Source: Limnoperna fortunei (Eukaryota > Mollusca > Bivalvia > Mytilida > Modiolidae). From it: a DNA stretch of 64,000 nt. The stretch covers positions 2,897,494 to 2,961,493 of the forward strand of contig OX104116.1 of the NCBI GenBank assembly GCA_944474755.1, given 5' to 3'. Positions 16,127 through 60,456 of the stretch are shown here, piece after piece; positions within the stretch are counted from its first letter, which is position 1, and the number at the start of each line of letters is the position of its first letter. The translations under genes were made by a program, and so were the position numbers. Under the pieces are notes generated by a model. The model was not told the DNA's origin, did not search any database, and saw only the letters and a list, made by a program, of their open reading frames with translations.

Positions 16127-19100
16127 CACAGCACGGAATGTCTATATGCCATCTAGTGACATTATTGTAAAATAAAATTTGGCTCTATGTGTTTATGTGT
16201 TGCATTACAATAAAAGTTAAGAGCACTATTAAAATCTAGAATTTCGCACTATGAATGGTCTCTATTTAACACTGTTATAAACACTGAATTTGATAAAAGT
16301 GTAAATTGTTATATTTAGCAATGATATAAAAAGTTGGGTTCTATAAAATCTAAAAAAAAAAAAAAAAAAAAAATTTATCGATTCGGACAGGAACAGAGTC
16401 ATTATCTTATGCTTATCAATGTTATCTGGACTTAGAGCCAGCACGTACGTCGTGGAAGATCCCACTGTCGACTGCTACTAACTCAAGTCACTAGACATAG
16501 AATAACTAATTATTAATATCTCTTGAGAATCAGTTGGCGGACGAAAAATTAAAAGCATATTGAAAAATTATGATCACAACAGTGTTGATTGGCTGCCCCA
16601 CAGTCCCAACCCTACCCCCCGCTCCCAACCTCTCATTGCCATGGTATTTGTTGCTACTTCTTCAGGATCAACCTACTCCTGGCATTGTGAATCAGGTAAA
16701 TCATCCTCCTAGCGTGGTACTCAATTTGGAATATAACTTCATCTGGAGTGTTCTTTGATTTGAGTTTGGTGATATCAAGTAAAACCTGTGTTTTATTTTC
16801 TGTATCTAACCTGTCCCACTCTGTATCACTGTTACTATTCCACAGATTTCTGACGTAGTTCAAGGAATTCTGTCTATATTCATCCCATGCTGGGCATTCA
16901 ATTAGTAGGTGTTCTGTTGTTTCTACCTTTGACTTACATGCACCACAGAGGTATTCAGCACCTTCTCCGTAGATTTTGTAGCGAAGTGGCTGTAAAATAT
17001 ATGTTCCTGTTAACAACCTTAGTTTGGTTGGTATTCTAACAAGGTCCCCTGCTAGATGACTTCTGCGTTTCAATAGTTCATGAATTTCTCCAGGTTTGAA
17101 GTTTTGGGCGTTGAGATAACGTAGGCTTGTGTATAGTGAGGTATTGAATGTGATTTGGGAAGTCCAAAATTTGTGTATTCCTCTTTTCAACTGACAGATT
17201 CGTACAGATTTTTTCTTACCATCATCTAGCCATTCCCTTGCATTGCCAAGGTCATATTTCAGGATTAGTTTTTGTACATCTATAAACCAACTTTGACTGC
17301 TCATTGGTTTAACCTCCAACTGCCTTCTGGCTAATCTTTTCTCTAGGCTGTTTTCACCCTGTTCACATATATTACAGTAAAAAGTCAGAGTTTTAATATG
17401 GATTTGTCCCTCCACTGGTAATATTCCCGTAAGAACATAAATTGACGGGTCTGGGGTATTTGTTGGCAAGGAAAGTAGTTGTTTCAGCATTTTTTTCTGG
17501 AAACGTTCTAGGATATCAAGATTTTTTGTCCTTGGAATAATTAGTTCCATGCCATACAGGAGTACCGGGATGATGTAGGTCTTATAAAGGTGTATTGTTG
17601 TCTCAGGATCTAGCCCATTTTCGCCATGGAATCCACTACCAAATAAAGCGTATGCACTTCTGCGTGCTTTCTTGATGTTTTCTTGTACATTAACCTCAGC
17701 ATTTTGAGCTAGGTTACTTGTTCTGATGATTCCAAGGTGAGTGGCCTTTTCTACCATCGGCATTGGTTCTGCATTCAATGTGTATTGGTGGGACTTTGCT
17801 GGTTTCTTGGTAGCTTTTGGTTTAATATTGATGGATACACTCTTTTGTGGCTGTAGTATATAACCCTCCATCATTGCAAAATCGTTTGACATGTTGATTT
17901 GGACTTGCATCTCAGTTGGGGTGGTTCCTAATAGTGCAACATCGTCTGCACAGGCTGTTGCATTACACATTACGTTTCCAATTTTACATCCATTCGCTGC
18001 GTGTTCAAGTCTATCCAATAGTGGATTTACGTATAGTTTATATAAATCAGTACTCAAAATGCCCCCTTGTCTGACTCCTTGTCCCACCTCAAATGTTTTG
18101 GAAATCTCTCCACTCAATTTTATGGCACTGCTGGCATTGGTATGCATACTCTGAATTACGGCCCAATGTAGATCGTCTACCCCCGCATGGAATAAACGTC
18201 TTAAAAGATGATTATGGATGACAACATCAAATGCTGCTTTTGCATCAAGGAGTACCAACTCATAATCTTGGTTAGTGTCCTTGGACTCTCTATAGATCTC
18301 TTCCACTGGCAAAGCTGCGTTGATTGGTGACGAGTTTCTAGTAAAGCCCCTTTGGGTCGGGTTTTGGGTTGCAAGAACATATGGTTGGATTCTGACTCTC
18401 AGTATAGCTTCTATGATCTTATTTATAACTGGAAGTACTGTTATTCCTCTATAATTTGTAGACTGGTTTTTATCTCCTTTATTTTTATATAATGGAGTTA
18501 GGAGGCCTACTTTAAGTACATTTGGTATTTGTCCCAGTTTAATGATTAAGTTAATTAACATCAAAAGAAAGTTTTGTAGTTTGTGCCCTCCATTATGGAT
18601 ATGTTCTATGGTGATTCCATATATATCAGCGGATTTCCCTCTGTTGATCAATTTAATTGCTTCTTGTAACTCTTCAGTTGATGCTGGTGAAATATGCTTG
18701 TTTTGGATTAACTCTTCAATCAGTTTAATTTCATAATTGACATTACGGTGGTATTTTTGATCCCCATTGTAGGCCGATTCGTTAAGCATCGCTAGAGAAC
18801 TGAAATGTTGCCGGAATCCCTCGATGACTAGATCACCCTCATAGAGTCGCTCGTCAACAATGATTTCTTGTATATTGGAGTTCTTGTATCTGTTATTTCT
18901 GATTAGCCGGTGGAACAGCCTTGGATCTTTAGTTCTAGTTTCCATTATTCTCTGCTTTTCTTGGTCCCTGACCCTAGCCTGCTCAATTCGAACCTGTCGC
19001 CTAAACTCCTTCTTTGATTTGATCCTGTTTTTATAGTTAGTGTCATCTGGTTGTCGTGACTGGCCATTCTTTACCCATATACTGTAGTAATGCCTCATTT

Positions 19101-22100
19101 CGTTCAATGCTTTTTTGATTGCTGGTGTCCATACCTTTAGTTTTGGTTTGGATACAAAAATTTGTTTCCTGTTTGTGCAACTGTTGGCAGATTCTTTAAG
19201 CATATCATGTAATTCATGTAGCATCTCATCTGCATCCTTAATTGACTCAAGGGGTTTGCTGAGTAGCGATTCTAGGTGCTTGTTTACCATAGCCTCATAC
19301 AGATCTTTGTCAACTTTATCCCATTTAATTGATAAGCAGTTTGTCTTTTCACTGGGTTTAGTTGGTTTGTCTCTATTTGTAAAGACTTGTTCAATTTCTA
19401 TTTGGATCGGGTAATGGTCCGATGTATTGCTGATGATATCTTTCATGATGCTTTTCCCAGGATCATTAGACTTAATCTTAAGTAGAAAGTAGTCCAGTTC
19501 TGAGCATTCCTCCCCATTTGGTCTGATAAAGGTTTTTCCAGAATTTTTGTAGATGACACCAAGTTCCGAAATAAACTGCAGTAAATAGTCTTTTCGCTTG
19601 TTATGCCTAGAGTCATTTGCTAAGTCTTCGTTCAGATCCCCTCCAATGATGATTTCATGGGTGTTTTGATATTTTTGTACTATTTCGTATAACTGATCTA
19701 TTGTATCTTTATAGTCATCATCATGGTTACGACTCCCAATCGATGGTAAATAGACTGAAGCAATGAGAAACATTCTACTAGTTGAGCCTTGAATTTCAAT
19801 GCACTGTATTCTCTCTCTCCCATCCTCTAACGGTTTAACTGTATTATCTAGATTTTGGTTCCATATGATTGCCACACCCCCAAATCCCCTTGGTAGGTAT
19901 TGTGGTGATAATTGTTCATATTTATCAACGCCCTTTCCTGCATAGCAGATGTCTTTCTCAAGATCGGACAATGTATCAATATGAGATTGGAAGAGCCATG
20001 TCTCCTGAAGCAGTACGATATTGTTGTGTTTTATGAGCTGTGCAATGGTATGCCAGTTTGCCTTCGCTCCCTTACAGTTGAAAGATACCACCTTTAAATT
20101 TGAGTTTGGACTCGATGGGCTCTGTGTTATTGCCGTTGGTGCAGGAGGCTTGTGTGGTCTAAAAAAAGATTCTGTTGAGGAAATTGACTGTTTTTCGTAT
20201 TCTGGCCACTTTGCCTAGTTTGGTTATAGGTATCAGTACCATTGAAGTAAGTATGTGTGCTATGGTTAATGGAGGTAAGATGTTGTCCAGATTGCGTGCC
20301 AGTTTGTTCCTCATGCATCGAGTTATTTATTCTATTTAGGTGTTTCCTATCCCTGACCGTGATGTGGTTCCTTTGCTGTTGTGGTTGTATATGTGGAACG
20401 GTTTGCCTCAAGGGGGAATAAGCCGGTGCTATAGTTGGAATATGAACTTGCTGGCATGGTATTGGTTGAAGATGAATTGGGGTGTCTTGATATATGAATA
20501 GTGGAGTTCCCATCAGATGCGTATGTGAAAAAGTTGATGTAGTTAGTTTTGTTTCACCTGCTGTTTGGGTATCTTCATTTCGTTTAGTGTGATCTTGTTG
20601 GCGTCTGCCCTCTGCAAATTCTTGCTGACTAACTTGTGATTGATATCTGTGCTGTCTTGGTTCTAAATGTTGGAGAGGGGTGCCATTCTCGCTTCCTTTC
20701 ATGGACTGTGGTATTCCCCAGTTTGTTGCTATTACATATGGTTCTTGCCTTTGAATTGTTGGAAATTGTTGTTGAGTAGGGTTGCTATTCTCGCTTACTC
20801 TCATTGGTGTGGTCTGAGGTTTTCCCCAATTAGTTGTTACCAAATCTAGTTGGGATTCCACTTGATCCATAATGAGCCCCGTTATCTTTTCGTGAATAAT
20901 TGCTATCCGTGCTTGAAGCTTATCTTGTGCTTGCTCTATGTGTTTACTGCCTGCCAAAGGTTGTTGAGGATATGCCGAGCTGTTAGGGGTGGTAAGTCCA
21001 TCCACTCGTTTTTTCAGAGTTACTACCAGTGCTTCAAGTTCAGTATTTCTTGCCTCTAAGTACTGACATCTAGTCTCTAATAGAGTTATTTTCGATTGGT
21101 CCTCTTTGAATATTTTTTCTTTCAGTTTAAATTGCTCTTCAGCTTTTCTTAGTCTTAGCTCCCGATCTCTTAAGTCTTTTTGTTTGGTTTGTTCATCGGA
21201 ATTGGTATACTCTTGATTGTGAGTAATAATTGTGGGTTCCAGCAACTGCTTGGATCTCTTTTTATTCTTTTTGATATCTGCCTGTTTAGTACCTTGTTCT
21301 TCATGCCCATTGTTGGATGGATTCTTCATTGCCACTGCTCGACTTGCTGGTGGTCCTACGTCTTGGTTGGGAATCCTTTTTACAGATGTTGTATCATCAT
21401 CTAGGCTTTCTTCGTGTTCTGTATTATTGGGCTTGATGTTTATGGATGTTATGTTCTTAACGACATCTAAACATGGATAACAAGTAAATTGGTCACCGTC
21501 TATTGTCATACAGTTCATGTGAAGCAGCACATTACAGGCTATGCAAATATCACCCTCCTCTCCTTGGATAAGTTGATCACATGATGGGCAGTTTTCTAAT
21601 TGTTCGGATACTTCATCCGTCCTACTTGTCTCTTCATCTAGAAGACTATTAGCCTTGTGATTGTGATTAAGACGCATAGGTGTCACCAGCCTTTGGTCAG
21701 CATCAGGGGATAGTACGTTGGAGTTTGTTTGTTCAGTAGCATGGTTAGTTGTTATACATAGTTTACAGGTGTAGTCATGGTTATCTGGTTCCTTTTCTAC
21801 TTCCTCTATCTCCTGCTTTGATAGTCGTTGGCAGTTGTGATGGATCCAATGTTGCCCCTTGTTGCAAAAGGTCCCATTTGTTCTACATTTTTTCTTGCAT
21901 TTCTTACAATCTATTGATAGTGCCTGTTGTAACTTCTCTTTCAGTATATTGTTGAGCTGTTGGACAGTAACAGATGCATTCCCAGACATTGAGGTTTCTA
22001 TCATCTTTTGAATCTCAGGCATATCCCGGTCCATGAAGACAGAATGGTCCTTGCCATTAACCATTATTCTACTCTTAGTCAAATATAAGTTGACAGTAAA

Positions 22101-24387
22101 ATTATGACCATCTTCTCCTTTAACTCTAATGACTATTTGTGTAATTATTGTTCTGGTCTCATCATATTCCTCCTGGACTTTGGTCGTAGCTACAGATTTT
22201 GGCAGTCTATTGTAATACTCTACAGTTGCTTGTTTTATTAGCTCAAATGATGCTACATCAGCAGTAAAAACTATGCCTCCATTTGTAAATTTGTATTCTA
22301 AGTTGACTTCTCTATCTGCTGCCTCAAGCTTCTTTATTAACGCCTTTTCTATATTTAGTGTGTAATTCTTTACAATAGTTCTTTGCTGTGTTTTCCCTCT
22401 TTGCTGTCCCATCTGTTTCGTTGGTATGGCTAGTTGACTCTTATTTTCTCCTCTTGCCATCATGACCGATCTGAGAGTTCGAGAACTGAGAGCCAGCATG
22501 TACGTCGTGGAAGGTCCCACTGTCGACTGCTGCTAACTCTAGTCTCTAGTCACAGATTGTCACTGATAACAGTCGGTTTGTACCTGCCTTCCAATTTTCT
22601 TCAACCAGACCTTGGACAATGTTGGTGCTGGGTGGATACCGTCCTGATATAATGTAAAGTTGTACTTGTCGGATTCCCTGTGGTGCCTGTTCTTAGAAGA
22701 TTTTTGTTGATTGTGACTTATGTCTTGTACCAGAGATGGGGCTCGTACTTGTAGCCTGGAGTTGAGGTCTTTGATTTTCTGGTTAATTGCCTGGATACCT
22801 TTGGCAATGATGATATCTTGATTTTTAAATTGATTTACCTCTGGATGGTTCTGTCTGCTGTTCCAAATGAAAATAGAATATGGAGGTACTTCTAAGAAGG
22901 TGATTTTACAGGCAGGGTACGATGCAACGATCTCTGCGATTTTCTCTAAATTCTGGATTGCATTCGTTGTTGCTTCCTCTATATTCCCATTCAAGGACAA
23001 ATATCTAGATTTATGATCATATAAGGTTAAATCACAGGTTCCCAGCCACACATAGAGAGAGATATTATCCAGTTGACCAACCTTTTGTTGCCAGTTATTC
23101 CTCATCCATTCTAGCCCGTCATGTGTTGACCGACCTTTAGCTGACCAAAAACGAATTTGTGACGTTATGCCTGGTCTTATATGCCTCTGTAGGTAGTTGC
23201 CTTTGCTATCAGATAATAAGGCTGGAATTAAGATGCGGGTCCCAGATAATGGTTCATCTGGTTTGGACAGATACTTTTGTAGTTTAGCCAGTGACATACC
23301 CTGTAGATATACTGTATTGAGTTGTGTGTTGGGGAGGGAAGTGGCAATGTGGGAACAGCCAAGCCCTAGCCTAAATCTAGTTTATCTAATTTATGTAAAT
23401 CGTGTGAAAAATGAAGAATTTACTATGAAATTTATATAACAGTGCTTTATAATATTACAATAATATTGCTTTACAGTATTAAAATATTAAAATAATCGTG
23501 TGAAAAATGAAGAATTTACTATGAAATTTATATAACAGTGCTTTAAAATATTAAAATAATATTGCTTTTCAGTATTAAAATATTAAAATAATATTGGAAA
23601 CCCCAAAGTTTATCACTCAGAGTAGGAGTTCAATGTCTGGTGTCACGGTTCGGTAAAGCCCGTGCAAGCAAATTATCGAGATAAAGTTAGTCTACACCAT
23701 TTTTATTTGTTCGGCCAGTGACCCAAAGTGTAAGATGATGTTTTGAAAAACTATGCAATGTTATTGTTTGGAATTCCTGGTATATTTTCACAATTTTTCT
23801 CAAACTTTTTCCTCTGTGTAAAAGATGTCTGCCGTCCTAACCGGAAGTCCAGCGGTAATGCACATCCCCAAGTAACCCCGGGCGTAACTGGGTCTGACTA
23901 ATCCCCATAATAATTTCACCACAAATGTAAGCAATTAACCCCAAGGCTAAATTACTGTTAAAATATCTTGCATTTATTGCTCTAAACAAATGACCCCTAA
24001 AAATAAAACACAGTGCGTTCCAACGAAATAAACGTCCGTAAAAGCGACACACTTTCATCGCCGAAATTCGAGTGTACTAGCATACATTAGACGTAACCAC
24101 GTGTGAGTCACGTGTGGCATGTCAACAAAGATGGCGCTATCAACAGCGAAAATTTAAAACAGAAGAAACCAACAAACAATATTTACCGGGGAAAATAAAC
24201 ACGAACATAAAATATTGGCATGCTATGTCAAACTTACATTCCTATCCGACTCCCGGGACTCTTCATCACTGTCGAAACGATAGCGAGTGCGGGCTGATCT
24301 GTTTTTCTTGGTAGTCTTGGACAACTTTATCTCTTCTAACTCATGCACATCATGGTTATCATCATCAGACACCATTGAATCACTCAT
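9666..24387 (-). CDS. Seven-exon gene of the EnSpm element, 440-aa protein of unknown function
   Basis: I rebuilt this gene by hand from splice borders and reading phase. Minus-strand exons are 24387-24238, 15117-14673, 14238-14099, 13268-13198, 11974-11880, 11494-11385 and 9977-9666. Every intron has GT-AG borders (for example GTAAGT after exon 1, TTTTGTAG before exon 7). All phases join, and the sum is 1323 bases, exactly 441 codons with a stop. The protein starts acidic (MSDSMVSDDD). A Ser/Thr-rich segment with repeated TPVRDxHRSTSS-like phrases follows (exon 2), then a charged helix likely to form a coiled coil (exon 3), a conserved-looking region with KWHFDGS and MSDHIITFVKG (exons 4-5), and a very basic stretch (exons 6-7). 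I recognise no named domain. By position it may play the accessory DNA-binding role that TNPA has in plant CACTA elements, but that is inference. Intron 1 (9.1 kb) contains LINE A in the same orientation. Confidence 0.7.
10250..10790 (-). repeat. Dispersed repeat, GGGGTATATAGGAATCACCC family, copy 1
   Basis: On the minus strand it begins with a GGGGGGTATATAGGAATCACCC-like phrase and a CTGTCTGTCTG run. It then contains degenerate repeats of about 170 bases with CAACTCCTCATAAACCG, GATTTTGATGAAACTTT and GAGATAATTGGA phrases. The same sequence occurs on the plus strand at 31740-32165 and 32690-33105. Noncoding, within an intron of the 440-aa gene. Confidence 0.75.
10962..11320. mobile_element. 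Palindromic MITE interrupted by a second MITE
   Basis: Outer arms at about 10964-11016 and 11271-11320 are inverted copies (TTATTTACGTTTTATGAAAC on the left, matched by the complement of GTTTCAAAAAACGTAAATAA on the right). Between them lies a separate 235-bp element at 11021-11255 with its own inverted ends, CAGTGGCGTAGCT and AGCTACGCCCCTG. The inner ends resemble those of many nonautonomous hAT-like elements. I could not find a clear 8-bp duplication around it. Confidence 0.6.
13010..13160 (+). repeat. Possible 3' end of a LINE ending in an AAAT microsatellite
   Basis: Sequence rich in TATATGTTTTG-like phrases ends GTTTGCAATAAATAAATAAA. Such simple tandem tails are common at 3' ends of CR1/L2/RTE-type LINEs. 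No coding part is attached. Confidence 0.35.
13600..13877 (-). repeat. tRNA-derived SINE candidate
   Basis: Read on the minus strand, the segment begins GAGAGCCGGTGGTGTAGTGG. This contains a good RNA polymerase III A box (TGGTGTAGTGG at 13856-13866). A degenerate B-box-like GGTCTCGAAG lies about 70 bases downstream (13777-13786). The body extends to roughly 13600. It lies in an intron of the 440-aa gene. Confidence 0.5.
15840..16375 (+). repeat. Two poly-A tracts beside LINE A
   Basis: A run of about 49 A (16076-16124, preceded by AATAAAAACTATA) and a run of about 23 A (16351-16373). They read as tails of plus-strand retro-insertions, or as 3'-terminal T runs of LINE A. The bodies upstream share phrases such as CAATAAAAGTTA but no family was recognised. 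Confidence 0.45.
16654..20159 (-). CDS. LINE A ORF2: APE endonuclease, reverse transcriptase, zinc motif
   Basis: About 1145 residues are visible from the endonuclease onward. The apurinic-type endonuclease has FNCKG, QETWL, GGDLNED and SDHYPI. The reverse transcriptase follows with NYRGITVLP, LLDAKAAFDVV, GVRQGGILS and the catalytic CADDVALL near residue 714. The C-terminal zinc motif is CGACKSKVETTEHLLIEC. This gives nicking of target DNA and target-primed reverse transcription. No ATG lies near the start of the frame: the first residues of the endonuclease are preceded by an open frame overlapping the end of ORF1. The frame is entered at a -1 slippery heptamer (20160-20166). So it is probably made as an ORF1-ORF2 fusion, which is unusual for a LINE. 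The start coordinate given is the first base after the slip site. Confidence 0.85.
20127..22463 (-). CDS. LINE A ORF1: PHD-like zinc fingers and coiled coil
   Basis: The start is taken at the ATGATGG at 22463, which has a good Kozak context. An earlier in-frame ATG at 22499 is weaker. Two cysteine-rich PHD-like fingers are visible. The first begins CKKCKKKCRTNGTFC and ends HDYTCKLC. The second begins CPSCDQLIQGEEGDIC and ends FTCYPC. A long charged coiled coil of about 60 residues follows (LRDRELRLRKAEEQF onward). The tail is Gln/His-rich. LINE ORF1 proteins bind the element RNA. Here the fingers and coiled coil suggest a multimerising RNA- or chromatin-binding protein. Near its end, codons CTT TTT TTA form a T-TTT-TTA slip site leading into ORF2. 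Confidence 0.8.
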   Translation of the reverse strand: MMARGENKSQLAIPTKQMGQQRGKTQQRTIVKNYTLNIEKALIKKLEAADREVNLEYKFTNGGIVFTADVASFELIKQATVEYYNRLPKSVATTKVQEEYDETRTIITQIVIRVKGEDGHNFTVNLYLTKSRIMVNGKDHSVFMDRDMPEIQKMIETSMSGNASVTVQQLNNILKEKLQQALSIDCKKCKKKCRTNGTFCNKGQHWIHHNCQRLSKQEIEEVEKEPDNHDYTCKLCITTNHATEQTNSNVLSPDADQRLVTPMRLNHNHKANSLLDEETSRTDEVSEQLENCPSCDQLIQGEEGDICIACNVLLHMNCMTIDGDQFTCYPCLDVVKNITSINIKPNNTEHEESLDDDTTSVKRIPNQDVGPPASRAVAMKNPSNNGHEEQGTKQADIKKNKKRSKQLLEPTIITHNQEYTNSDEQTKQKDLRDRELRLRKAEEQFKLKEKIFKEDQSKITLLETRCQYLEARNTELEALVVTLKKRVDGLTTPNSSAYPQQPLAGSKHIEQAQDKLQARIAIIHEKITGLIMDQVESQLDLVTTNWGKPQTTPMRVSENSNPTQQQFPTIQRQEPYVIATNWGIPQSMKGSENGTPLQHLEPRQHRYQSQVSQQEFAEGRRQQDHTKRNEDTQTAGETKLTTSTFSHTHLMGTPLFIYQDTPIHLQPIPCQQVHIPTIAPAYSPLRQTVPHIQPQQQRNHITVRDRKHLNRINNSMHEEQTGTQSGQHLTSINHSTHTYFNGTDTYNQTRQSGQNTKNSQFPQQNLFLDHTSLLHQRQ
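20160..20166 (-). promoter_or_regulatory. Programmed -1 frameshift heptamer T TTT TTA between ORF1 and ORF2
   Basis: In the ORF1 reading frame the sequence is X XXY YYZ = T TTT TTA, the heptamer used by HIV-1 gag-pol. Slipping back one base moves translation exactly into the ORF2 frame (next codon AGA). ORF1 would otherwise stop about 33 bases downstream. Function is inferred from placement. No downstream pseudoknot was verified. Confidence 0.65.
22485..22556 (-). repeat. Intergenic module of LINE A, repeated at about 16425-16505
   Basis: The phrase GTCGACAGTGGGAYCTTCCAC followed by GACGTAC and TGCTGGCTCT occurs here, between the SGNH ORF and ORF1. It occurs again about 6 kb downstream, past the ORF2 stop. 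GTGG and CCAC around GATCTT or GACCTT can form a hairpin, and flanking GTC/GAC can extend it. It might guide translation restart or reverse-transcriptase recognition. That is speculation. Confidence 0.6.
22560..23297 (-). CDS. SGNH-hydrolase-like ORF at the 5' end of LINE A
   Basis: 245 residues. It has the four conserved blocks of the SGNH/GDSL hydrolase fold: block I LLSDSKG (nucleophile Ser in SDS), block II around SAKGRST (Gly), block III WLGTCD, where most family members have GxND, and block V DGIHP with the catalytic Asp and His. The catalytic Ser-Asp-His set is present, and the oxyanion-hole Asn is replaced by Cys. Esterase domains are known in ORF1 proteins of CR1/L2-type LINEs, but here it is a separate upstream ORF. 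It is clearly homologous to the SGNH ORF of the gypsy element at 60728-61507, sharing the N terminus, SDSKG, GTCD, a WN-HP-FK pattern and DGxHP. The substrate is unknown. Confidence 0.8.
   Translation of the reverse strand: MSLAKLQKYLSKPDEPLSGTRILIPALLSDSKGNYLQRHIRPGITSQIRFWSAKGRSTHDGLEWMRNNWQQKVGQLDNISLYVWLGTCDLTLYDHKSRYLSLNGNIEEATTNAIQNLEKIAEIVASYPACKITFLEVPPYSIFIWNSRQNHPEVNQFKNQDIIIAKGIQAINQKIKDLNSRLQVRAPSLVQDISHNQQKSSKNRHHRESDKYNFTLYQDGIHPAPTLSKVWLKKIGRQVQTDCYQ
23400..23596. repeat. Two tandem copies of a 99-bp AT-rich unit
   Basis: The phrase GTGTGAAAAATGAAGAATTT begins both copies (about 23400 and 23499), and each ends in ATTAAAATATTAAAATAAT. Located just upstream of the LINE A 5' end. 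Confidence 0.75.
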
Positions 24388-24531: not shown

Positions 24532-27500
24532 ATGAAGATGCTGACCATTTTTGGAATGGAAAGTTCCACAGGAAGTGAAATTTGCAGGGAGAAAAAAGCG
24601 CAAAAACCGCGTTGTTGGCAGCCATTCTTGAAACTGAAGACAATTACAACAGAAAGACCCTGCCAACCTTTCAAAAATTTGTAAGTAACAGCATGCTATT
24701 TTTGTTACAAATCAAATGAAATTTAACCTGTTATTTAATGTTTGAATTATTTAGATTAAAAAAACTGTATGATACATGTAAATCAGTTAACATTATCATT
24801 TTTGTTGTATTAGATGTCCACAATATGGGAGAGGGGTATTTTCTGGGCATTCTACATGTTTTTCTCAAGATGAAAATGTACATGCATAGCTATATAGTTT
24901 GCATTACTTTGTCTAGGAATTCAATATGCAGTATTTTAATTGAATGATATGCCTGATTGATGGGATTCTAGCATTGCAAACTTGTACCATTTGATTAATG
25001 TGACTGTTGTACATTTTGAAGTGTAAATTGTACCACAAAATGCACATTCTAAGTGTAGGTACAAATTATTCACAAATGAACCTACATGTACAGTAGTACA
25101 TGTATCAACTCATGTATATGACAAAATGTGCCTGCCGGGAGACCAAGTCAGATAAAAATTGCTTTGGTCAAAAAGAAAATTTAGAAAAAATTAAGTTTAA
25201 ACATTACATGTATGAAATGACTATGAGATTACAGTCATTACATTTTACATGTTTGTTTTGGACTAGAAGACCATTCCAAACACACAAATATTATAGATGT
25301 ATCATATGTACATGTATATTAGGATCAAAAAAAAAAATGTTCCCTTGTGATATCAACCACATGCATGTGATAAGGTTTGTAAGTAACCTGCCCAAGGTCG
25401 GTGGTTTCATCTGGATGCTCCTGTTTCATCTACCATCAAAACTGACCGTCCTACAATGTATATGACCCAAGTGCATCGAAAAGGGTGTTAAACCCTAACA
25501 CACACACACAAGAAATTAGTTGGATATACAATGTATATAGGAGCACATTGTTTATTTTTTAGGTACTTGTCAACAGCTAATAGTATAGATGGTAGCTACA
25601 AGAGAGCTCGAGTGATACAGATCCAGACCATGTACATGTTTTTCATTTTATGTAAGTAAATGTACATCATTCTCCTGAACTTCACGAAGAATGAGTCAAA
25701 AGTAAACTATTGCTGCATTCTTCTTTAATTTAATGGCTAAGGTTAAGGTTTTCCTCAAGGTCCTCAGCAACTACAACTACATGTACTGGTACATGTAGTC
25801 ATGTATGCATGATGGGGATACAAAAAAATATAGCCTGTGAATGATATCAGACATGGTAGATTTTTTTAACCCGTATCTGCTGAAATGAAAAGGATATATG
25901 TACATGTATTTGTCGGTATTATAAATACCGACTTTTTATTGTCATCTGCTAATCATTTACTGCACATGAATTTTTTTTTTAAGGATTTACAATCCTTTCT
26001 TTTGAAAATTTTCAGAAGTACATGTACAATGTACTTAATTATTAAACCCTATAAAACAGTAATCTAGCCAGAAAAATGAAAAACTCACAAGAAATAATTG
26101 AAATAATTAATACATTGTATAATGTACTTAAGTATTAACTACAAAAAATATTTTCTCCATCGAGGGATAACAAAATTTCTGTTTTGCACATTATATAATC
26201 TGACAAAGTGATGTGAATGACATAGACATAGAAACTTTATTTGAAGTCGGGTTATAAATACAAGTAACATAAGCTCTGTAGAGCTTTTAACCGACAAACA
26301 ATAACAACATACATGATACAACAATACATATTAATCAGGCTTAGACACATAAAACATTCTATTATATAAAACTATGTTAGCATGTAAGAAAGTACAGAAC
26401 ACAGTACATATAACACACAAAGAGACACATAAAACCTACTCGATATATATAAAACTAAGCTTGCATGTAATAAAGCACAATTAAAAGACCAGACATGCAT
26501 AAGCAATAGGTAGGACATGCATTAGCACTAAGCACAACACTTACAAAGAAAACATGAATAAAACATAAAATCCAGAACAGAGTTAGAATATAAAAAGCAC
26601 AATTATTTGGAATTAAAATCTATATGTAAAGATATGCATAGGCACTAGGACATACACAAGCCTAAAAATTGAAGCACAGTACATAAAAAACTCTGAAGTA
26701 CAGCACATAAGCACAAAAAATACATGAAGCATAAAAACATAAAAGTAACGAGCCAAATATAAATAGGAAATACAGGATTAAGATCTGCAGGAGCTACATC
26801 TGCAAGAGTTGCCATTCCAGTTATTAATCAGGCTCTTGAACTGGTTAATGTTTGTCTGTAAACGTAATTCATTTGGCAACTCATTCCAGAGTGTGGCTCC
26901 AGCATACCTTACTGAGTGAAGTCCACATCCTGTAGTCCTTACCTGAGGTATCTCGACCAGATTGTCCTTTCTAAAAGAATAATGAGATTGTTTTAAAGTA
27001 ATTACATCATGTAGGTATACAGGTGACTTTTTATGTACAATTTTAAAAACTTCTAATGCCATTGTTCGTAAACGTCTAATTTTAAGGGTAGGTAAGCCTG
27101 ATTTTAATAAAAGTTCCTCATAATTACAGTCGTATTGTTCATAGATAAAGCGCAAGGCACGTTCTTGTATTTTTTCCATCTTTTTTGTATTATTTTCCCC
27201 ACAGAAATGCCAAACAACCGGACAGTAATTAAAATTGGACATAATAAATGAATAATAAATTGTTAACCTTCCCAATTTTGATAAATATTTTCCAATGCGT
27301 TTTAATATGTTTAACTGCCTTGATGCCTTTTTACAAATATTTGAAATATGGGTATCAAACTTCAATTGATAGTCGATTGTCACACCCAGGAGAGTAACTT
27401 CATCCTCACATGAAATTTCATTCCCATCCAAATTGAATTTTAGACCCCTAGATTTAGTTTTTTTTCCAATGGCAATTGCCTGAAATTTTTCTGGATTAGC

Positions 27501-30500
27501 CTTCATTTGATTATTCGAAAACCAATTGATTAAAACAGCACTTTCATTTTCCAAAGTTTTGACTAATCCTTCAATGTTTGAGTCTGAGTGTGACAATGTA
27601 TTATCATCCGCATAATTGTACAGTGTACTTTCTTTAACAAAACAAAATATGTCATTTAGAAAAATATTAAATAGAACAGGACCAAGGATAGAGCCTTGGG
27701 GGACACCCTTATAAATATTTTGCCAAGTGCTACTAGCTGAACCAACTTTAACACATTGAGATCTGTTTGACAAATAACTATTTAATAAATTAATAGCAGC
27801 TCCAGTTAAGCCATAGGCTTTCAATTTTAACAATAGTAAATCGTGCGGAAGACAGTCAAATGCCTTTGAAAGATCCATCAGGACAGCAGCTACATATTTA
27901 TTATCATCAACCGCTTTTTTCCAATCTTCAATTACCTTTAACAATGCTGTATTACAGCCATAGCCAGGTCTAAAAGCCGACAAAAATGGATTAAAGATAT
28001 TTTCAAAATAATCTATGAGCTGCTGGTAGATGGCTCTCTCAAAGATTTTTGACACTGCCGGCAAAATACTGACTGGTCTATAGTTACCAGAATCTAATTG
28101 GCTGTTTTTCTTGTGAAGTGGCACAACCTGAGCTTTTTTAAGAGCATCAGGAAATGTTGATGTTACAATAGACTTATTGACAAGTTTTGTTATTGGTTGT
28201 AGCAAGGCAGGCTTACCTATTTTTAACATTTTTACAGATATACCGTCTATTCCAGTTGCCTTATTTACATTTATCTTATTAATCTGTTTTTCAACAAAGT
28301 CATAATCTATGTGTTCGAAATTCAAATTACCTCTTATATTGCAATTTTCAGCAATTGCTGCTATACTTGGGTGGTTATTATCTGCCTGGCAGCTCCCATT
28401 TCCAATATCTTTAGCTACATTGACAAAAAAATTGTTAAAAGTTTCTGCAACATCAGATTGGTTATTTATAATTTGATTTTCATTACATAATACAATATTA
28501 TTTTCAAAAAAACTACCTTTGTTTGTCAAAAAAGGCTTTATTGTAGGCCAGAAATCTTTTTGCTTGGGACCCCCAAAACAGCGTTCAATAAAGTAGTGAC
28601 GAATTGATTGTCTTTTTAATTTGTTAACATAATTGCGTTGTATTCTGTAATATTCCCAATTTACCTTTGATTTGGTTTTTAAATACTTGTTGTGAAGCAT
28701 AGATTTTTTGTAGATGGCATGTCGTAGCTGGTGGTTCATAAATGGTGCTTGGTTTTGTTTGTTTTTTCGTTTTTTCATGGGGATGTGTTGGTCAATTATA
28801 GTTGTAACCTCAGTTTGAAAGTAATTATAAGCTGTGTTAATGTCATTCTCCTGGTCTATCTTGTTTGATAGATTAGCTTGATTCAGATCTTTTATGAATT
28901 CTTCTTCATTTAATTGCTTATAACTTCTGTATTGTTTAAATTGGTTTTTAATTGGTGGAATGTTAGATTTTATTTGTGCTGAAATAATATTGTGCACATC
29001 ACTCAAACCACAGTTAAAATTTGTGATATTTTGTAGTAGGTTTTTACTGTTGGTTAAAATGACATCATTGAGTGTTGGACTTGCTCCTTTCGTAAAGCAT
29101 GTTGGCCCTTTGACAATATTTTCTAAATCACATACATCACACACATTTTGTAATGGGTTACACCTGTCTGCTGTTAATAAATCATAATTTAAGTCACCTA
29201 AAAGCATAATATGGTCATATCTTACAGAAATTTTGTCATATGTTTTAATGAAATCATGTGAGAAAATATTGTCCGTGATAGTTTGTGGTCTGTACAGTCC
29301 AGATATCAGCCACTTTTTGTCATTGATGGAAATTTCAACTGTTATTGATTCAATTGTCTCACATTCAAGGTCTTTCTTTCGATCACAGGCAATATCAGAT
29401 CTTAAATACATAGCAAGACCGCCACCACTAGCTGTTCGATCTTTTCTCCAAAGGTGGTAATTGTCTACTTTAAATTGGGCATCAGGGAAAGAGCTGTCTA
29501 TCTTGGTTTCTGCTATTACAAGAAGGTCAACTACTTTTGCACTCAACAGATCTATGATGGAGGAAAACTTGTATCTCAAACTGTTTATGTTTAAGTAAGC
29601 ACATATAAATTTACTTGGATGTTTTTTCTTTATGTCATATAGTACCTGAAATATATTGTTGGAACATTCAGGGCTTACCAGCAGCGGAGTTTCATCTTCC
29701 AAAACATCCCCGTTGTCACAGACAGATTCTCCGGATGTTGACACATGGTTACTAAAATCTACAGCAGATGCGGATAGATCAGTGTCATAATCCGCATCTC
29801 GATCGTTGTGTGGATCAATAAAGAAGGAATCGCTGAATTTCGGCAAACGATCGGAGCAATTAAAGCAGTAGAAATGGTCGTCACAGTTTGAAAGACGTGT
29901 GTATTCACCGAGTGAAAGTTCTGTACACTTAAGGTGTGTCCAAAAATCACAGAAGTCGCATTGAAGTGCTTTTTGATTACCTTTTACAGGCTTGCAGCAG
30001 CAAGTGCAAGGGTGTTTTACAGGTCCAGGGTTGAGATGGATGTCACCGCTCAGTAAAATGGCTAAAATTGTCAAGTAGTTGGTCGGATTTTCAATTTTTC
30101 TTTCTATCACTTTTGTTGTTATAGGTCGGCCATGTTGATTAAAAGAGTTCACGACTAATGTACTCATAGATTGTAAAATAAGTTCACATTTTGGAATAAT
30201 TGTTAAGTCCAAACATGCATAGAAACCTAAGTCTGAGGCATGGTAATCATGTTGGTATAGCTGAAGGTTGTTCTTTGGGCATATTCGTAGTATCAATGTT
30301 GAAAGTATCAGAGCCCACATAATGCCTCCTTGTCCGACCGCCATCTTATCCTTCTACTGTGGTGTCAAAACATGAACATCAACAACATCAGACAAATATA
30401 AGCTTTTTCCTACTAGAAAATAAGAATCTATTATTCTTTAAATGTTTAAAAATGTTTTGAATATGATATCAAAACAATATTGCATATTTTTTCTAGTCAA

Positions 30501-34433: not shown

Positions 34434-37349
34434 ATGGACCAGCAATCTAAAAGGTCTAGGAAAACATGTATTTATTGTAATGAAGATTTTTCTGACAGGC
34501 ATTTTAGAAGACACGTTAATTTTGTTGAATGCAAAAAAAGTGTCACCAATGATCTTAATGATAGGTTAAGTATATGTCATACACAAAATGCAGCTGTAGG
34601 TTGTGATGCTAATGAAAATGACACTTCTGAAGATTATTTGCATCAAGATTTTATAAGTGATGACGAACAACCGATAGATTATGATAAATATTTTAGTGGG
34701 GAAAAAAACTTTTTAGACTGTAAAAACTTAAATGAAGAGGATGTTAGATGTTATTTTGATGAAAATGAACCTGAGCATTTTCAAGATTGTATAGATGACT
34801 TCTCTGATTATGAATTGTCAGATGAAGAAATTGAACTTTTCAATGAAGATGTCTTAAACAAAAGATCAAAAGATATTACTACAATATATACATACTGGTT
34901 TTGTCGTGTCCTTATGTTATGGAAATTTGTATATTATATATCTGATTCATCTTTTGGATTTCTATTGAAAGTTTTACACATGTTTTTTAAATTGTTTTCA
35001 AAAACAAGTGAAACTTTAAGAAAAATATTTAACTTTTTCCCACAAAATTTATATATGATGTCAAAAATTTTGAAAACTGGTTCAGAAAATTTTGAAAAAT
35101 TTGTTGTTTGTATTAAGTGTTTTACCTTATATGATTATAGAGAATGTTCTCATGTAATTGAAGGTGTTGTTGTTACAAAGTATTGTACAAACATAGAATT
35201 TCCTAATCATCGAGTCCTTGGAAGAAGATCTCCTTGTAATCAAGCGCTTTTAATGGAAGTTAATAATGGACAATTAATAAGACTTCTACCCTACAAAATA
35301 TTTTGTTACAAGTCTATCAAATCTACCCTTCAAAAATTTGTTCAACGTTCTAATTTTGAAGACCTTTGTGAAAAATGGAGATCATTGGAAAAAAAAACTG
35401 GAATTTTCCAAGATGTCTATGATGGTCATATGTGGAATAAATTTAATGGGGGTGACTACAATTTTTTTGGTACAGAAGCAAATTATGGACTTATGCTTAA
35501 TGTTGACTGGTTCCAACCTTTTAAGCACACAAACTATTCTATTGGTGCAATTTATTTAATTTTCTTAAATTTACCAAGAGAAGAACGTTTTAAGAGGGAA
35601 AATATGATATTGGTCGGTATAATACCTGATATGAAGTCTGAACCACCTACTAACACATTTTTACTTCCATTGGTGAATGAATTGAAAATTGCGTGGTCAA
35701 ATGGATTTTTTTTAAATTCCTACAAATCCCCTCAGCATTTGAAATGTTTCAAACTTGTCCTTCTTCTAGTTGGATGTGATGTACCGGCAAGCAGAAAGCT
35801 ATGTGGGTTTCTTGGCCATTCAGCAACTGTAGGATGCAACAAATGCAAAAAAGAATTTCCGGGAATGATTGGAGAAAAGAACTATGGAGGGTTTGATAGA
35901 GCTTCATGGCCAGTAAGAGACAATTTAACTCATCGTGATGAATGTAAAACAATTTTAGAATCTACAAGTAAAGGAGATAAACAATCATTAGAAAAACAAT
36001 ACGGTACTAGATATTCATGTCTTTTAGAATTGCCATATTTTGACCCCGTGCGCATGACTCCTATTGACCCCATGCACAACTTATTCCTAGGTACCGCTAA
36101 ACACATGTTTAAGGTTTGGAAAACAAAGGGACTCCTAGATGATGAAAAATGTAAGATGATTGAAAAAAAGATTCTTCCATATAGTTGTCCATCTGATATC
36201 GGCAAACTACCCAAAAAAATTTCCACAACTATGGGATCATTTAATGCTGACCAATTAAAAAACTGGACTATTTTATTTTCCATATACGCCTTAAAGGGGA
36301 TATTACCAGATGATCATTTAGAATGCTGGAGAAAGTTTGTCCTTGCATGCACTAGATTGTGCTCCAGATATATATCGATTGGGAATGCAAAAGTTGCAGA
36401 CAGATTGTTGATATACTTTTGTAAAATGTTTGAACAGCTTTATGGGGAAGACTTTGTTACTCCCAACATGCATTTACATGGACATCTTCTTGACTGTGTT
36501 CTAGATTATGGGCCCATTTATTCGTTCTGGTTATTTAGCTTTGAGAGGCAAAATGGTATTTTGGGGTCATACAAAACTAACAGAAAAAATGTTGAAGCTC
36601 AAATTATGAAAAAATTTCTTGGAGAGTCCAGGTCCAGAGAAAAAGATGATGATATCGATAATCATTTCACGGATATGTTTAACGAGTTAGCAGGAACAGA
36701 TAGAGACCGTGGTACATTGGGTGATGTTCATAGTTTGCAGCATTCAACTCAAAGTTCAATAGAGCGATCCTCACTCAGTTTTATTGTAAAAGATAAACCT
36801 TGGTACTTGTCAGATGGCATTCATTTTCAGAATCCAAAATCTGATTCACTGTCAGATGAAGATATAAGAGTTTTGTATGAATTTTATAATTTTTTGTATG
36901 ATTTTGATTTTGAATTTTGTAAATCTAAACAGTGGGCAAAAGAAGTGTATTTAAATGGATCAGTTTTAGGTTCTAAAATGAGTAGGAGTATACGATCTTC
37001 TTATGTTATGGCTTTTTGGAGTGATGATGATGGTAACATTACTGTAGAGAATGAATTAACAGCTCGTCCTGGACAGATAGAAAAATTTGTAAAGCATTCT
37101 ATTATTGTAAATGGTGAAACAAAGTGTCATTACCTAGCAAAGGTACACTGGTTTAAAAAGTTAGAAGATCCATTAAGAAACTTTTATGGAAAACCAGTTG
37201 AGGTTTGGTATTCAAATATGTATGTACCGATGGGTTCTGCATCATTTATTCCCATTCATAGAATTAAATGTAGATTTGTTTTTGTTCACACTACCCTCCT
37301 TAATAAGGATGTAATGGTCATTTCACCAAGAGAGCGTTACATTTTGTGA
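34434..37349 (+). CDS. tnp2: TNP2-family (EnSpm/CACTA) transposase
   Basis: 971 residues in a single exon, intact. An N-terminal C2H2/C2HC-like finger (CIYCNEDFSDRHFRRHV) is followed by an acidic stretch to about residue 145. The TNP2 transposase core follows: NVDWFQPF near residue 357 (the counterpart of the DGFNPF acidic motif in plant TNP2), LPREERFKRENMILVGIIP, a zinc-binding GCNKC-x-K element, and DPMHNLFLGTAKHM near residue 544, a signature of this family. It would cut and join the element ends at 8850 and 39254. Codon use is AT-rich like its surroundings. It is preceded by about 450 noncoding bases after the 183-aa gene and is likely transcribed separately or as a downstream exon of the same unit. 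Confidence 0.88.
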   Translation: MDQQSKRSRKTCIYCNEDFSDRHFRRHVNFVECKKSVTNDLNDRLSICHTQNAAVGCDANENDTSEDYLHQDFISDDEQPIDYDKYFSGEKNFLDCKNLNEEDVRCYFDENEPEHFQDCIDDFSDYELSDEEIELFNEDVLNKRSKDITTIYTYWFCRVLMLWKFVYYISDSSFGFLLKVLHMFFKLFSKTSETLRKIFNFFPQNLYMMSKILKTGSENFEKFVVCIKCFTLYDYRECSHVIEGVVVTKYCTNIEFPNHRVLGRRSPCNQALLMEVNNGQLIRLLPYKIFCYKSIKSTLQKFVQRSNFEDLCEKWRSLEKKTGIFQDVYDGHMWNKFNGGDYNFFGTEANYGLMLNVDWFQPFKHTNYSIGAIYLIFLNLPREERFKRENMILVGIIPDMKSEPPTNTFLLPLVNELKIAWSNGFFLNSYKSPQHLKCFKLVLLLVGCDVPASRKLCGFLGHSATVGCNKCKKEFPGMIGEKNYGGFDRASWPVRDNLTHRDECKTILESTSKGDKQSLEKQYGTRYSCLLELPYFDPVRMTPIDPMHNLFLGTAKHMFKVWKTKGLLDDEKCKMIEKKILPYSCPSDIGKLPKKISTTMGSFNADQLKNWTILFSIYALKGILPDDHLECWRKFVLACTRLCSRYISIGNAKVADRLLIYFCKMFEQLYGEDFVTPNMHLHGHLLDCVLDYGPIYSFWLFSFERQNGILGSYKTNRKNVEAQIMKKFLGESRSREKDDDIDNHFTDMFNELAGTDRDRGTLGDVHSLQHSTQSSIERSSLSFIVKDKPWYLSDGIHFQNPKSDSLSDEDIRVLYEFYNFLYDFDFEFCKSKQWAKEVYLNGSVLGSKMSRSIRSSYVMAFWSDDDGNITVENELTARPGQIEKFVKHSIIVNGETKCHYLAKVHWFKKLEDPLRNFYGKPVEVWYSNMYVPMGSASFIPIHRIKCRFVFVHTTLLNKDVMVISPRERYIL

Positions 37350-54112: not shown

Positions 54113-55762
54113 TCATTGCTCGGGTTTCGTTGCTTCTTGGATAACATCTAGCCGATTAGCAACAAAAGTGTGAAATCTCGATTTCCGATTGTTAATATAA
54201 CGTACAACCGATATACTATCTGTCCAAAATATAATTTTGTCAATAGTGTAGTTTATTTCCTTTACGATAATTTTGCTTAACTTGACGGCCTTAGCAGCAG
54301 CTGTGAGTTCAAGTCGCTGTATTGTTATCTTCTTGAGCGGAGTGACTCTAGATTTTCCAAGTACAAACGCACAATTGATTTGATCTGAATTATCAATCAT
54401 TCGGAGGTAAAATACCATACCATATCCTGTTTCGCTAGCATCAGAAAAGCAATGTAGTTGACAAGATTTGACCTGTCCAAAATTGACAGGTTTGTAGCAC
54501 CTCGGTAATCGTATACTCTCTAGATCGCTAATTTGAGAAAGCCATTCGTTCCATTGCTTAAGCTCAACTCCTGTGAGTTCCTGATCCCAACTATAACCAT
54601 GTTTACACAATCTTTGCAAAATTAACTTTGCTGTTAGCAAGAACGGTGACATAATTCCAATAGGATCAAAGATAGAACTTGTAATCGAAAGAACACTTCG
54701 TCTACACGCTGGTTTGTCCTTGAACGTAACTTTGAATCCCAAACAATCGGTCGCCATGTTCCACTGAACTCCCAAAGCCCGTTCAACTGGGAGACCATCT
54801 TCTAAGGTCCAATGCTGAACACCTTTCGCCCGATCGTCCTCTGAAATTGATTGAATGACATACGGTGCATTACTGATCCATTTAGTCATTTTAAATCCGC
54901 CATCTCTGCACAAAGAAGTAACATCTCTGATAGCATTAATTGCTTTGTCTTCAGTTTCTACAGATGCAAGGCAGTCGTCGACATACATACTATCAGTCAT
55001 TATTTGCGATACGGATGGATCGTATTTGTGTCCGAAATCTTCGATAGCATGATTTAAGGCAAAGTTGCAACAACTAGGTGAGGATGTTGCCCCGAAAAGA
55101 TGTACGGTCATTCGATACTCAACCGGTTCTCCATCTACATTACCATTAGGCCACCAAAAGAATCGAAGACAGTCTCTATCTGTTCGCGGAACTCGAACCT
55201 GGTGAAACATTGCTTCGATATCCCCGAGAATAGCAACATGTTCCTCTCGAAATCTCAAAAGTACAGTAAGTAAATTGTTTGTAAGGTTTGGTCCTTGAAG
55301 TATCTGGGAATTCAACGAAGCACCCAAATACGTAGCGGAACAGTCAAATACTACTCGTATCTTGTCCTTTTGTGCACGATAGACTCCGTGATGGGGCAGA
55401 TACCACACCCTACCATCATTTCTGTCCAAGTCTTCTAGTGGGACGATTTCCATATAGTCTTTGTCTATGAGCTTGTTCATGAATTCAATATAATCGTCTT
55501 TAAATTTTGGATTTCTAGAAAACTTAATTTTCAGTCCTTTCAGACGTTGTATACATTGTGATGCATTATCTGGAAAGGTTATGTGCGCATCTCTAAACGG
55601 TAAACATATTTCATAATGTCCATTTTTGAAGTCGACGGACTCGTTCAATAATTCCAAGAACTTCTTATCTTCGATTGAGCTTTCCCGCTTATCATCGACT
55701 ATACGTTCGGAAAAATCGTAGTTCATAGAATTTCTAAATAATTGTTCTTGAATCGTCTTCAT
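54113..55762 (-). pseudogene. BEL/Pao reverse transcriptase and RNase H region
   Basis: 549 codons. It shows the BEL reverse-transcriptase start (WYLPHHGVY), RVVFDCSA, MFHQVRVP, the catalytic YVDD near residue 259, a DUF-type connection, and RNase H (CFSDASETGYG, FWTDSISVV). It ends at TGA in a place where relatives have a Trp (EQ-stop-KYV). It is offset +1 from the gag-protease frame, which stops at 55734 within a 29-base overlap. The offset could be a programmed shift but is more likely decay, given the other lesions. Confidence 0.85.
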
Positions 55763-59077: not shown

Positions 59078-59190
59078 ACATCAAAAGAAGACGTTAAATA
59101 TCAACATAATCTTTTTATTGTGTGTGTGGTTGAGGAGGGGGGGGGGGTGTTCAAGAAAGATGGTAGTGTGATAGGGTCGATATTTTTATA

Positions 59191-60456
59191 TGTAACCATT
59201 AAATACAATATCTAATGTGTATTAGTATTATATCAATTCACTAATTGATAATCACAGGTGTATAAATGTTTTAATCCTTACAAGTGACCTCCAGCTAATT
59301 TGTATATGTTATTGATTTTTAGTATTACAGGTATAGATGACCAGGTGTTAAATCATGTGACTTGTTTATGGTCATTCACTGTATGATGTATTTTGAAAGT
59401 GAGGTGTGATGTAATGTTTGTATGATGTAAGTCTGAGAGAACGATTTGATTGGCTGGATGGTATGTATGAGTGATGTCAGAATGATTCTTTATGTGTGAT
59501 GTAGTGGTGTCCGAGAGATGTGATTGGTTGTTTAGTCATGAGGTACGAAAGAGAGTACTCGATTGGCAATTAGTGTTGGAGGGAAATTATGTTTAATTTT
59601 TCACTTTCACTCATTGTGTAAAGAAGTAGATTTGTTTGATATTTTGTGGAACATTTCTGCATAATTTATATTCGGAAGTTTACAGATATTTTGGAATACT
59701 CCTGTGTTCCACATCATAAAGGTATTTATATTTTTATGTTATATATACTTTATTTTTCATGTCTTTGTAGAGTAATCCGTCAGATTGCTTTTTCAATGTA
59801 ACGAAGACTCAAATTGTGAGATTGTTCTTCTTTAATTATTTTTATATTTGTCTAAGCTGGAGTCACTAGTTAAAGGTTATTATAAATGTTTACATGACAA
59901 GTTTAAGCTATATATATTTTTAATATATTTTTCACACGGATTATTTATACATTGTGGTCACATAGGTGTAGTTAATGCATAGCATACTTAGCATGCATTC
60001 ATATTATTTCAGATGTAGATCCTGTATATATTTGTCCTTGAGTTCTGGACTGTGTCTAAGTTGTTCTTGCAACCTAAGTCCCATAGACAGGTATTCAATA
60101 GTTCTATATTTATTTATTTATTACATCAATGATTAGATTAATTGTCTTACATTGTATCATACATTTTTATATACATTTCAAGATAATGGGTTTTGCATAA
60201 TTTGCATAGCTTACTGTATTTCATATTATTTCATTTCATATTTTTACTTTGAATATTTACTGAATATAATGAAATTATTTTCATATGGATCTATAATACT
60301 TATGTGACATGTTTTATTTGCATAATGTGATATAATTGTTGAACTATTTGTAATTTCAATTTATTGTTATTACAGGGTTGTTTTGTTCTATTATAATAAA
60401 CAACTACTGGATCTCAGCTGTGTTTGTTTTGAACACCCGAACCACCCCCGGTTACA
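59191..60456 (+). repeat. 5' LTR of the gypsy element (predicted borders)
   Basis: The borders are inferred from matching inverted tips TGTAACC (59191) and GGTTACA (60456), followed directly by the primer-site candidate. A TATA-like TTATATATACTTTATTT lies near 59740. The partner LTR is outside the window, so the left border is provisional. Confidence 0.55.

Follow-up and report, generated by a model that had tools for sequence, protein, structure and literature searches.

Esterase-like proteins of the SGNH fold have been described in several kinds of retroelement (a review, PMC6431247, touches on them; statements about published work refer to the parts of the cited papers that were consulted). 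Long interspersed nuclear elements (LINEs) of the CR1, L2 and RTEX types and some Penelope-like elements encode an esterase of the ZfL2-1 type in their first open reading frame (ORF1; Schneider et al. 2013, PMC3905857). The ORF1 types of the Jockey superfamily, including the esterase type, have evolved in a reticulate manner between LINE lineages (Metcalfe and Casane 2014, PMC4120745). Among elements with long terminal repeats (LTRs), the Vesta retrotransposons of bdelloid rotifers, like the Athena Penelope-like elements, contain a GDSL/SGNH ORF3, for which gene sharing, template switching and a membrane role were proposed; the same study noted esterases in Neptune-like Penelope-like elements of fish and mollusks, and found the esterases of LINEs to group apart from those of LTR elements, which it read as independent capture (Rodriguez et al. 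2017, PMC5408684). Here, we describe two ORFs with a predicted SGNH fold in a 64,000-nucleotide stretch of the genome of the bivalve Limnoperna fortunei (contig OX104116.1, positions 2,897,494 to 2,961,493; “the window”), one at the head of a LINE (LINE A) and one at the head of a Ty3/gypsy element. The best overall explanation, to which we assign a probability of about 0.75, is that a mobile 5′ SGNH-fold module has been passed repeatedly among the LINE, Ty3/gypsy and BEL/Pao elements of bivalves.

The two elements comprise the following features:

22560–23297, minus strand: first ORF of LINE A, encoding a 245-aa SGNH-fold protein (sequence, predicted fold)
20127–22520, minus strand: second ORF of LINE A, 797 aa from GTG or 790 aa from ATG, with a Cys/His-rich stretch seen by eye
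16654–20091, minus strand: endonuclease–reverse transcriptase ORF of LINE A (Exo_endo_phos, RVT_1)
59167–60456, plus strand: 5′ LTR of the Ty3/gypsy element, its first 1195 bp (59167–60361) identical to the downstream LTR; putative end at 60456 (TGTGA...TTACA)
60728–61507, plus strand: first ORF of the Ty3/gypsy element, encoding a 259-aa SGNH-fold protein and situated between 5′ LTR and gag (sequence, predicted fold)
61611–62831, plus strand: gypsy gag, its ATG separated from the SGNH stop by 103 nt, with a PNMA-like capsid region and a CCHC-like knuckle seen by eye (sequence)
62831–64000, plus strand: start of the gypsy pol frame, which leaves the window at its end; weak aspartic protease match below the Pfam cut-off

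In LINE A, the SGNH ORF is thus followed by the 797-aa ORF, in which no significant Pfam domain was found, and then by the endonuclease and reverse transcriptase (RT). The partner of the gypsy 5′ LTR lies downstream, beyond the window edge, and the RT–RNaseH and integrase follow the start of pol in the same genome (L010). The order is LTR, SGNH ORF, gag and pol (RT–RNaseH, integrase), and the element has the LTRs, the gag and the RT–RNaseH–integrase arrangement of Ty3/gypsy.

Like the ZfL2-1 esterase, the mussel ORF specifies an SGNH fold with a Ser-Asp-His triad and comes first among the coding regions of its LINE. It is, however, a stand-alone ORF of about 245–260 aa that also occurs in LTR elements. 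It has Cys at the position of Asn195, an oxyanion-hole residue of ZfL2-1, whose esterase forms one domain of an ORF1p with several domains (PMC3905857). As a separate ORF lacking that Asn, it falls outside the type IV esterase ORF1 of CR1/L2 elements. With the rotifer ORF3 it shares the appearance of an extra SGNH-type ORF in LTR elements that is common to another retroelement class, but ORF3 lies 3′ of pol and has its invariant residues intact, whereas the mussel ORF comes first, 5′ of gag; furthermore, the mussel family spans LINE, Ty3/gypsy and BEL/Pao elements, while the rotifer LTR esterases stand apart from those of LINEs (PMC5408684). Transfer of ORF1 types between LINE lineages is a further likeness, to the Jockey study, which concerns LINEs; no LTR element is reported in the text of PMC4120745 that was examined. 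In the initial annotation of the window, an SGNH ORF upstream of gypsy gag was not known to be a standard feature; for the mere presence of an additional SGNH ORF in an LTR element, the rotifer ORF3s are a precedent (PMC5408684). Already in print are SGNH ORFs in LINEs, transfer of ORF1 between LINEs (PMC4120745) and GDSL ORF3s in rotifer LTR and Penelope-like elements (PMC5408684). In the open literature, to which our survey was confined (subscription papers and Repbase entries lay outside it), we found no mention of this ORF in LTR elements of molluscs. On that basis, a single SGNH family placed before gag and common to LINE, Ty3/gypsy and BEL/Pao elements of bivalves appears to be new, as do the tree tests of exchange, the replacement of Asn by Cys and the existence of a subfamily that has lost the ORF.

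The two window ORFs are homologous: they could be aligned over 241 residues, nearly end to end, with 28% identity and 48% positives (E = 1e-28 in a single comparison). Both contain the SDSKG, GTCD, WN..HP..FK and DGxHP motifs and both are the first ORF of otherwise different retrotransposons, as had been noticed initially. Members of the family are short stand-alone ORFs with an N-terminus of the same kind, and the named relatives come mostly from Mytilus, with Pinctada and a bacterial symbiont assembly contributing one each. No relative was confirmed when viral contigs were scanned with the family alignment; among the contigs of bacterial genomes, one was obtained (L001), which is filed under a Bathymodiolus symbiont and which we read as host DNA. 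Bivalve-like retroelement DNA or protein (L001; P0071) was seen in assemblies filed as the bacterial symbionts Thiodubiliella and Thiodiazotropha, most likely as host carry-over.

Structure prediction confidently gave the SGNH fold for both window ORFs. The link to SGNH proteins was visible through these predicted folds only: when the Protein Data Bank was searched by sequence, each ORF gave no match at E ≤ 10, and a profile search of it returned nothing convincing (best 0.068). Neither ORF matched an SGNH family in Pfam; among 46 family members, Lipase_GDSL was found in two (best 1.1e-4) and Lipase_GDSL_2 in one (0.043), and the family protein P0118 carries a precomputed PF13472 annotation. 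ZfL2-1 was absent from the 50 structure-match rows listed for the window ORFs, which excludes nothing. Conservation was assessed in an alignment of 152 rows, made up of 28 locus or window rows, with copies of one locus omitted, and the 124 of 135 database proteins that are 200–310 aa long. Counting rows with a letter at the position, the nucleophile Ser of block I is present in 150 of 151, the Gly of block II in 140 of 151, and the Asp and His of the block V Asp-x-x-His in 143 of 146 and 141 of 147, respectively; the Ser-Asp-His triad is complete in 137 of 145. The block III Asn of the SGNH signature is replaced by Cys in 150 of 151 rows (Asn occurs only in L029), a share that may be inflated, as the database search required shared short (5-residue) words. 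Because of this substitution and the possible inflation, we call the protein SGNH-fold and not a proven SGNH hydrolase: of the SGNH identity originally proposed, the predicted fold and the triad stand, but the signature Asn does not.

The protein might be a non-enzymatic binding module that retains the SGNH fold, in the manner of the OSK domain of Oskar, which has an RNA-binding role. Oskar is described as a non-catalytic SGNH protein (PMC3905857). However, the triad kept in 137 of 145 rows would not be needed for binding, and we consider such a module unlikely. An enzymatic role is slightly favoured, while a membrane role is possible at somewhat less than even odds.

To find further copies, we scored the best 150 of 521 and 147 of 430 candidates in two genome searches, which gave at least 150 and at least 148 matches, merging to at least 184 places; since the candidates were only partly scored, an RT without a listed SGNH nearby is not proven to lack one. 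In the loci that were read and typed, the SGNH ORF is the first ORF. It heads elements of LINE A type (L027, L028), LINE C (L013, L014, the former with PHD, endonuclease and RT frames), and LINE D (L029) and LINE E (L031), both typed from the RT only. Among Ty3/gypsy elements, it heads the window family (L010, L011, L012, L015), its relative gypsy W2 (L040), gypsy 2 (L016, L019, L020, L022, L023, L026, L032, L033 and L034, as well as L001, with the order ORF, gag, RT, integrase) and gypsy 3 (L017, L018). The LINE and Ty3/gypsy hosts initially recognized are therefore not the only ones, since BEL/Pao elements also carry the ORF (L024, L025); L024 has the Pao peptidase A17, DUF1759, LTRs and an RT 42% identical to that of a BEL/Pao element in the window. 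L039 has a BEL-type ORF with its downstream part disrupted, and L021 is nested and decayed. Paired LTRs enclose the ORF in the window gypsy family (L011, 470 bp, 100% identical; L012, 98.7%; L015, 95.0%), in gypsy 3 (L017, 99.4%; L018, 100%), in L026 (234 bp, 100%, with ATAAC on both sides), in L024 (722 bp, 100%) and in L040 (677 bp, 100%), the LTRs of L011 and L040 being cut by the edge of the sequence read. The distance from LTR to ORF is 73 nt in L024 and 104 nt in L026. A 2997-bp tandem duplication (L023:1353-7335; 99.8% identical) spans the gypsy 2 SGNH ORF and part of gag. At L030:485-1258 (plus strand), there is an SGNH ORF 46–51% identical to clade I members (see below), with no RT of the query set within 6.7 kb downstream; it is possibly an orphan or part of an element of another kind.

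Trees of the SGNH proteins, calculated from 95 rows and from 21 typed rows, had two main clades. (The larger tree contained 24 locus rows and 71 of 84 proteins, those of 225–300 aa; L016, with a broken frame, L021, and L004, L011 and L020, which are copies, were omitted, and L039 was labelled BEL from its ORF alone. The smaller one additionally omitted L015, L023, L030 and L039, and included a 224-aa fragment of L012 and an L033 sequence with additional residues at its N-terminus.) Clade I comprises gypsy 3, LINE E, LINE C and the window gypsy (support 100/99), and clade II LINE A, LINE D, gypsy 2, BEL and gypsy W2, so that LINE and LTR copies are intermixed, with at least three changes. Approximately unbiased (AU) tests rejected a single clade of all LTR-borne SGNHs (p = 3e-16, or 1e-117 from the LINE side), a single clade of all gypsy SGNHs (p = 5e-91) and a grouping of the window gypsy with W2 (p = 1e-10); because the groups, although named by locus, were defined in part once the first tree was available, these values should be taken as very strong and not as exact. 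The RT tree, in contrast, separates LINE from LTR elements at 100/99, with the warning that long branches meet there. This conflict, the outcome that had been named in advance as favouring exchange, argues that the ORF moved between element classes, and we regard exchange of the module between classes as quite probable. The SGNH tree is unrooted. The two window ORFs themselves are not each other's partners: a direct exchange between them was rejected by their placement in different main clades, and the close partner of the gypsy ORF is that of LINE C, with 62% identity.

Could each element class instead have acquired the ORF on its own from one host gene family, without any passage from element to element? 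The SGNH superfamily is large, several of the SGNH clades sit on long branches, and the esterases of LINEs and LTR elements in the rotifer study were read in this way (PMC5408684). However, the clades share the block III Cys (150 of 151 rows, possibly inflated as noted), a short stand-alone ORF, a similar N-terminus and the first-ORF position, the window gypsy and LINE C are as close as 62%, and no such host gene was found in the protein database or in this genome, to which the search was limited. We therefore consider independent capture improbable. Descent from a very old ORF-bearing retroelement with massive loss could also yield the many relatives per RT lineage that have no listed SGNH, but the window gypsy and L040, with RTs 75% and gags 50% identical, have SGNHs that belong to different clades and are only 32% identical. 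A similar discrepancy is seen between LINE C and LINE D (RT, 51%; SGNH, 29%). The AU tests reject this explanation unless the tree model misleads, and very little weight is left to it. That the gypsy ORF is a stray LINE fragment in some copies, as the initial annotation had allowed for, or an assembly chimera can be dismissed, even though nested, decayed stretches do exist in the genome (L021, L039), because several loci share the same order with LTRs on both sides, the ORF ahead of gag and, in window-type copies, 2.6–3.4 kb between ORF and RT, and because the independent contig L001 has ORF, gag, RT and integrase in order.

The position of the SGNH relative to RT was also surveyed across the genome. 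A same-strand SGNH lay 1.5–7.5 kb upstream at 44 of 119 gypsy 2 RTs (all rows), 7 of 79 BEL RTs (of 80 rows; the one omitted is the second half of a copy already counted), 14 of 56 window-type gypsy RTs (of 127 rows, the best-scored 55 and one picked 86% copy), 9 of 46 LINE C-type RTs (of 145 rows, the best-scored 43 and three 52% rows that were chosen for their adjoining SGNH and are no fair sample) and 14 of 108 LINE A-type RTs (with 186 SGNH places; the result was the same with 47). An SGNH on the opposite strand was found once each for BEL and LINE A and never for gypsy 2, the window-type gypsy or LINE C, and one downstream of RT at four gypsy 2 RTs and at none of the other types. In the window gypsy group, an SGNH was listed at 11 of 11 RTs of at least 90% identity and at 3 of 3 of 75–89%, the adjoining SGNH being only a remnant at several of these. 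Two of seven BEL RTs of at least 90% identity had no SGNH in range, one having an SGNH about 10.5 kb away. Among close LINE copies, no SGNH was listed at 4 of 10 for LINE C (at least 90%) and 7 of 10 for LINE A (at least 88%); LINE copies are often 5′-truncated.

Several observations weigh against the preferred reading of repeated passage among element classes. In the window gypsy group, no SGNH was listed at any of 42 RTs of 65–74% identity, nor at any of 33 LINE C-group RTs of 55–89%; because RTs without a listed SGNH surround both, transfer may have run in either direction. Between the ORFs of the window gypsy and LINE C, synonymous change is saturated (proportion of differences at synonymous sites, pS, 0.90; at nonsynonymous sites, pN, 0.26), as it is in two distant gypsy 2 pairs (L022 and L034; L019 and L032). 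The transfer is thus old relative to synonymous change, with the protein under constraint, and no recent transfer has been caught in the act. With Cys in place of Asn, classical SGNH catalysis may be weakened or lost. The ratio of nonsynonymous to synonymous rates (dN/dS) reached 1.37 in the BEL pair L024 and L025, on 13 changes, and none of the four changes between L013 and L014 of LINE C is synonymous. Other near-copies gave lower ratios: 0.23 for the window gypsy and L012, 0.13 for L027 and L028, 0.37 for L024 and L039, 0.60 for L022 and the L021 copy, and 0.79, on four changes, for L017 and L018. Since the values vary in this way, selection is visible in some pairs and not in all.

Furthermore, six places in the genome match only residues 202–259 of the window gypsy ORF (L042, L043, C2:82009205, C4:101764397, C7:47258546 and C11:23530892), five of them with an RT 97–99% identical to that of the window at a distance of 2.6–3.4 kb. 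The two remnant copies that were read in part share a deletion, about 589 bp long and identical in its junction letters, which removes most of the ORF after the first codons and shifts the frame; in both, the start of the ORF is set off from the LTR side by about 400 bp of other sequence. A gypsy lineage without an intact ORF has therefore multiplied, which argues against a need for the intact ORF in cis. The strong selection for a hydrolase that had been suggested is accordingly seen in the conserved triad and in some low dN/dS values, but not in this subfamily, which spread with the remnant only. Its spread fits help in trans or a conditional benefit.

Transfer may have come about by template switching of RT between element RNAs that met in one cell, or one element may have inserted into another and the two then been mobilized together. 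By analogy with the role proposed for ZfL2-1 (PMC3905857) and with the rotifer proposal (PMC5408684), the protein may be an ester or lipid hydrolase that acts on particle assembly or membrane association, perhaps in trans. More tentatively, there may be, within one animal, a common pool of a mobile first gene for an SGNH-like enzyme with Cys at the oxyanion position (“SGCH”), swapped in and out of the three kinds of element by copy choice in reverse transcription and active in trans; elements without the ORF would then still spread because the protein works in trans. The next ATG lies 104 nt past the last base of the SGNH stop codon in the window, 117 nt in L040 and 187–320 nt in gypsy 2 and BEL. 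In gypsy 3 (L017:6258-7025, minus strand), the SGNH ORF ends in TAA and the ATG of gag-pol, which opens a frame of about 1935 aa, follows two nucleotides on, a spacing that would suit termination–reinitiation. Elsewhere, gag could be translated by reinitiation, internal entry or from a spliced RNA.

Reverse transcription takes place in different compartments of the cell for LINEs and for LTR elements, and the two are generally regarded as evolving separately. Movement of a gene from one to the other, assessed here against RT trees, suggests that their RNAs come together and recombine, and it points to one stage of the life cycle that dissimilar elements may have in common. With several natural swaps and losses in one genome, the purpose of LINE esterases can be tested by comparing elements that carry the gene with elements that lack it.

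Other features of the window touch on these elements less directly. A further LINE (LINE B, 26778-30344, minus strand) has the sequence GDIHLNPGP, which we take to be a 2A-like motif, ahead of a Cys/His-rich region, and GIETNPGP occurs in the Mytilus edulis gene model P0023, which fuses an SGNH ORF to a PHD domain. The BEL/Pao element of the window (54113-58115, minus strand; Peptidase_A17, DUF1759) has no listed SGNH match upstream. At 34434-37349 (plus strand), there is a 971-aa ORF that matches Transposase_21 (tnp2).

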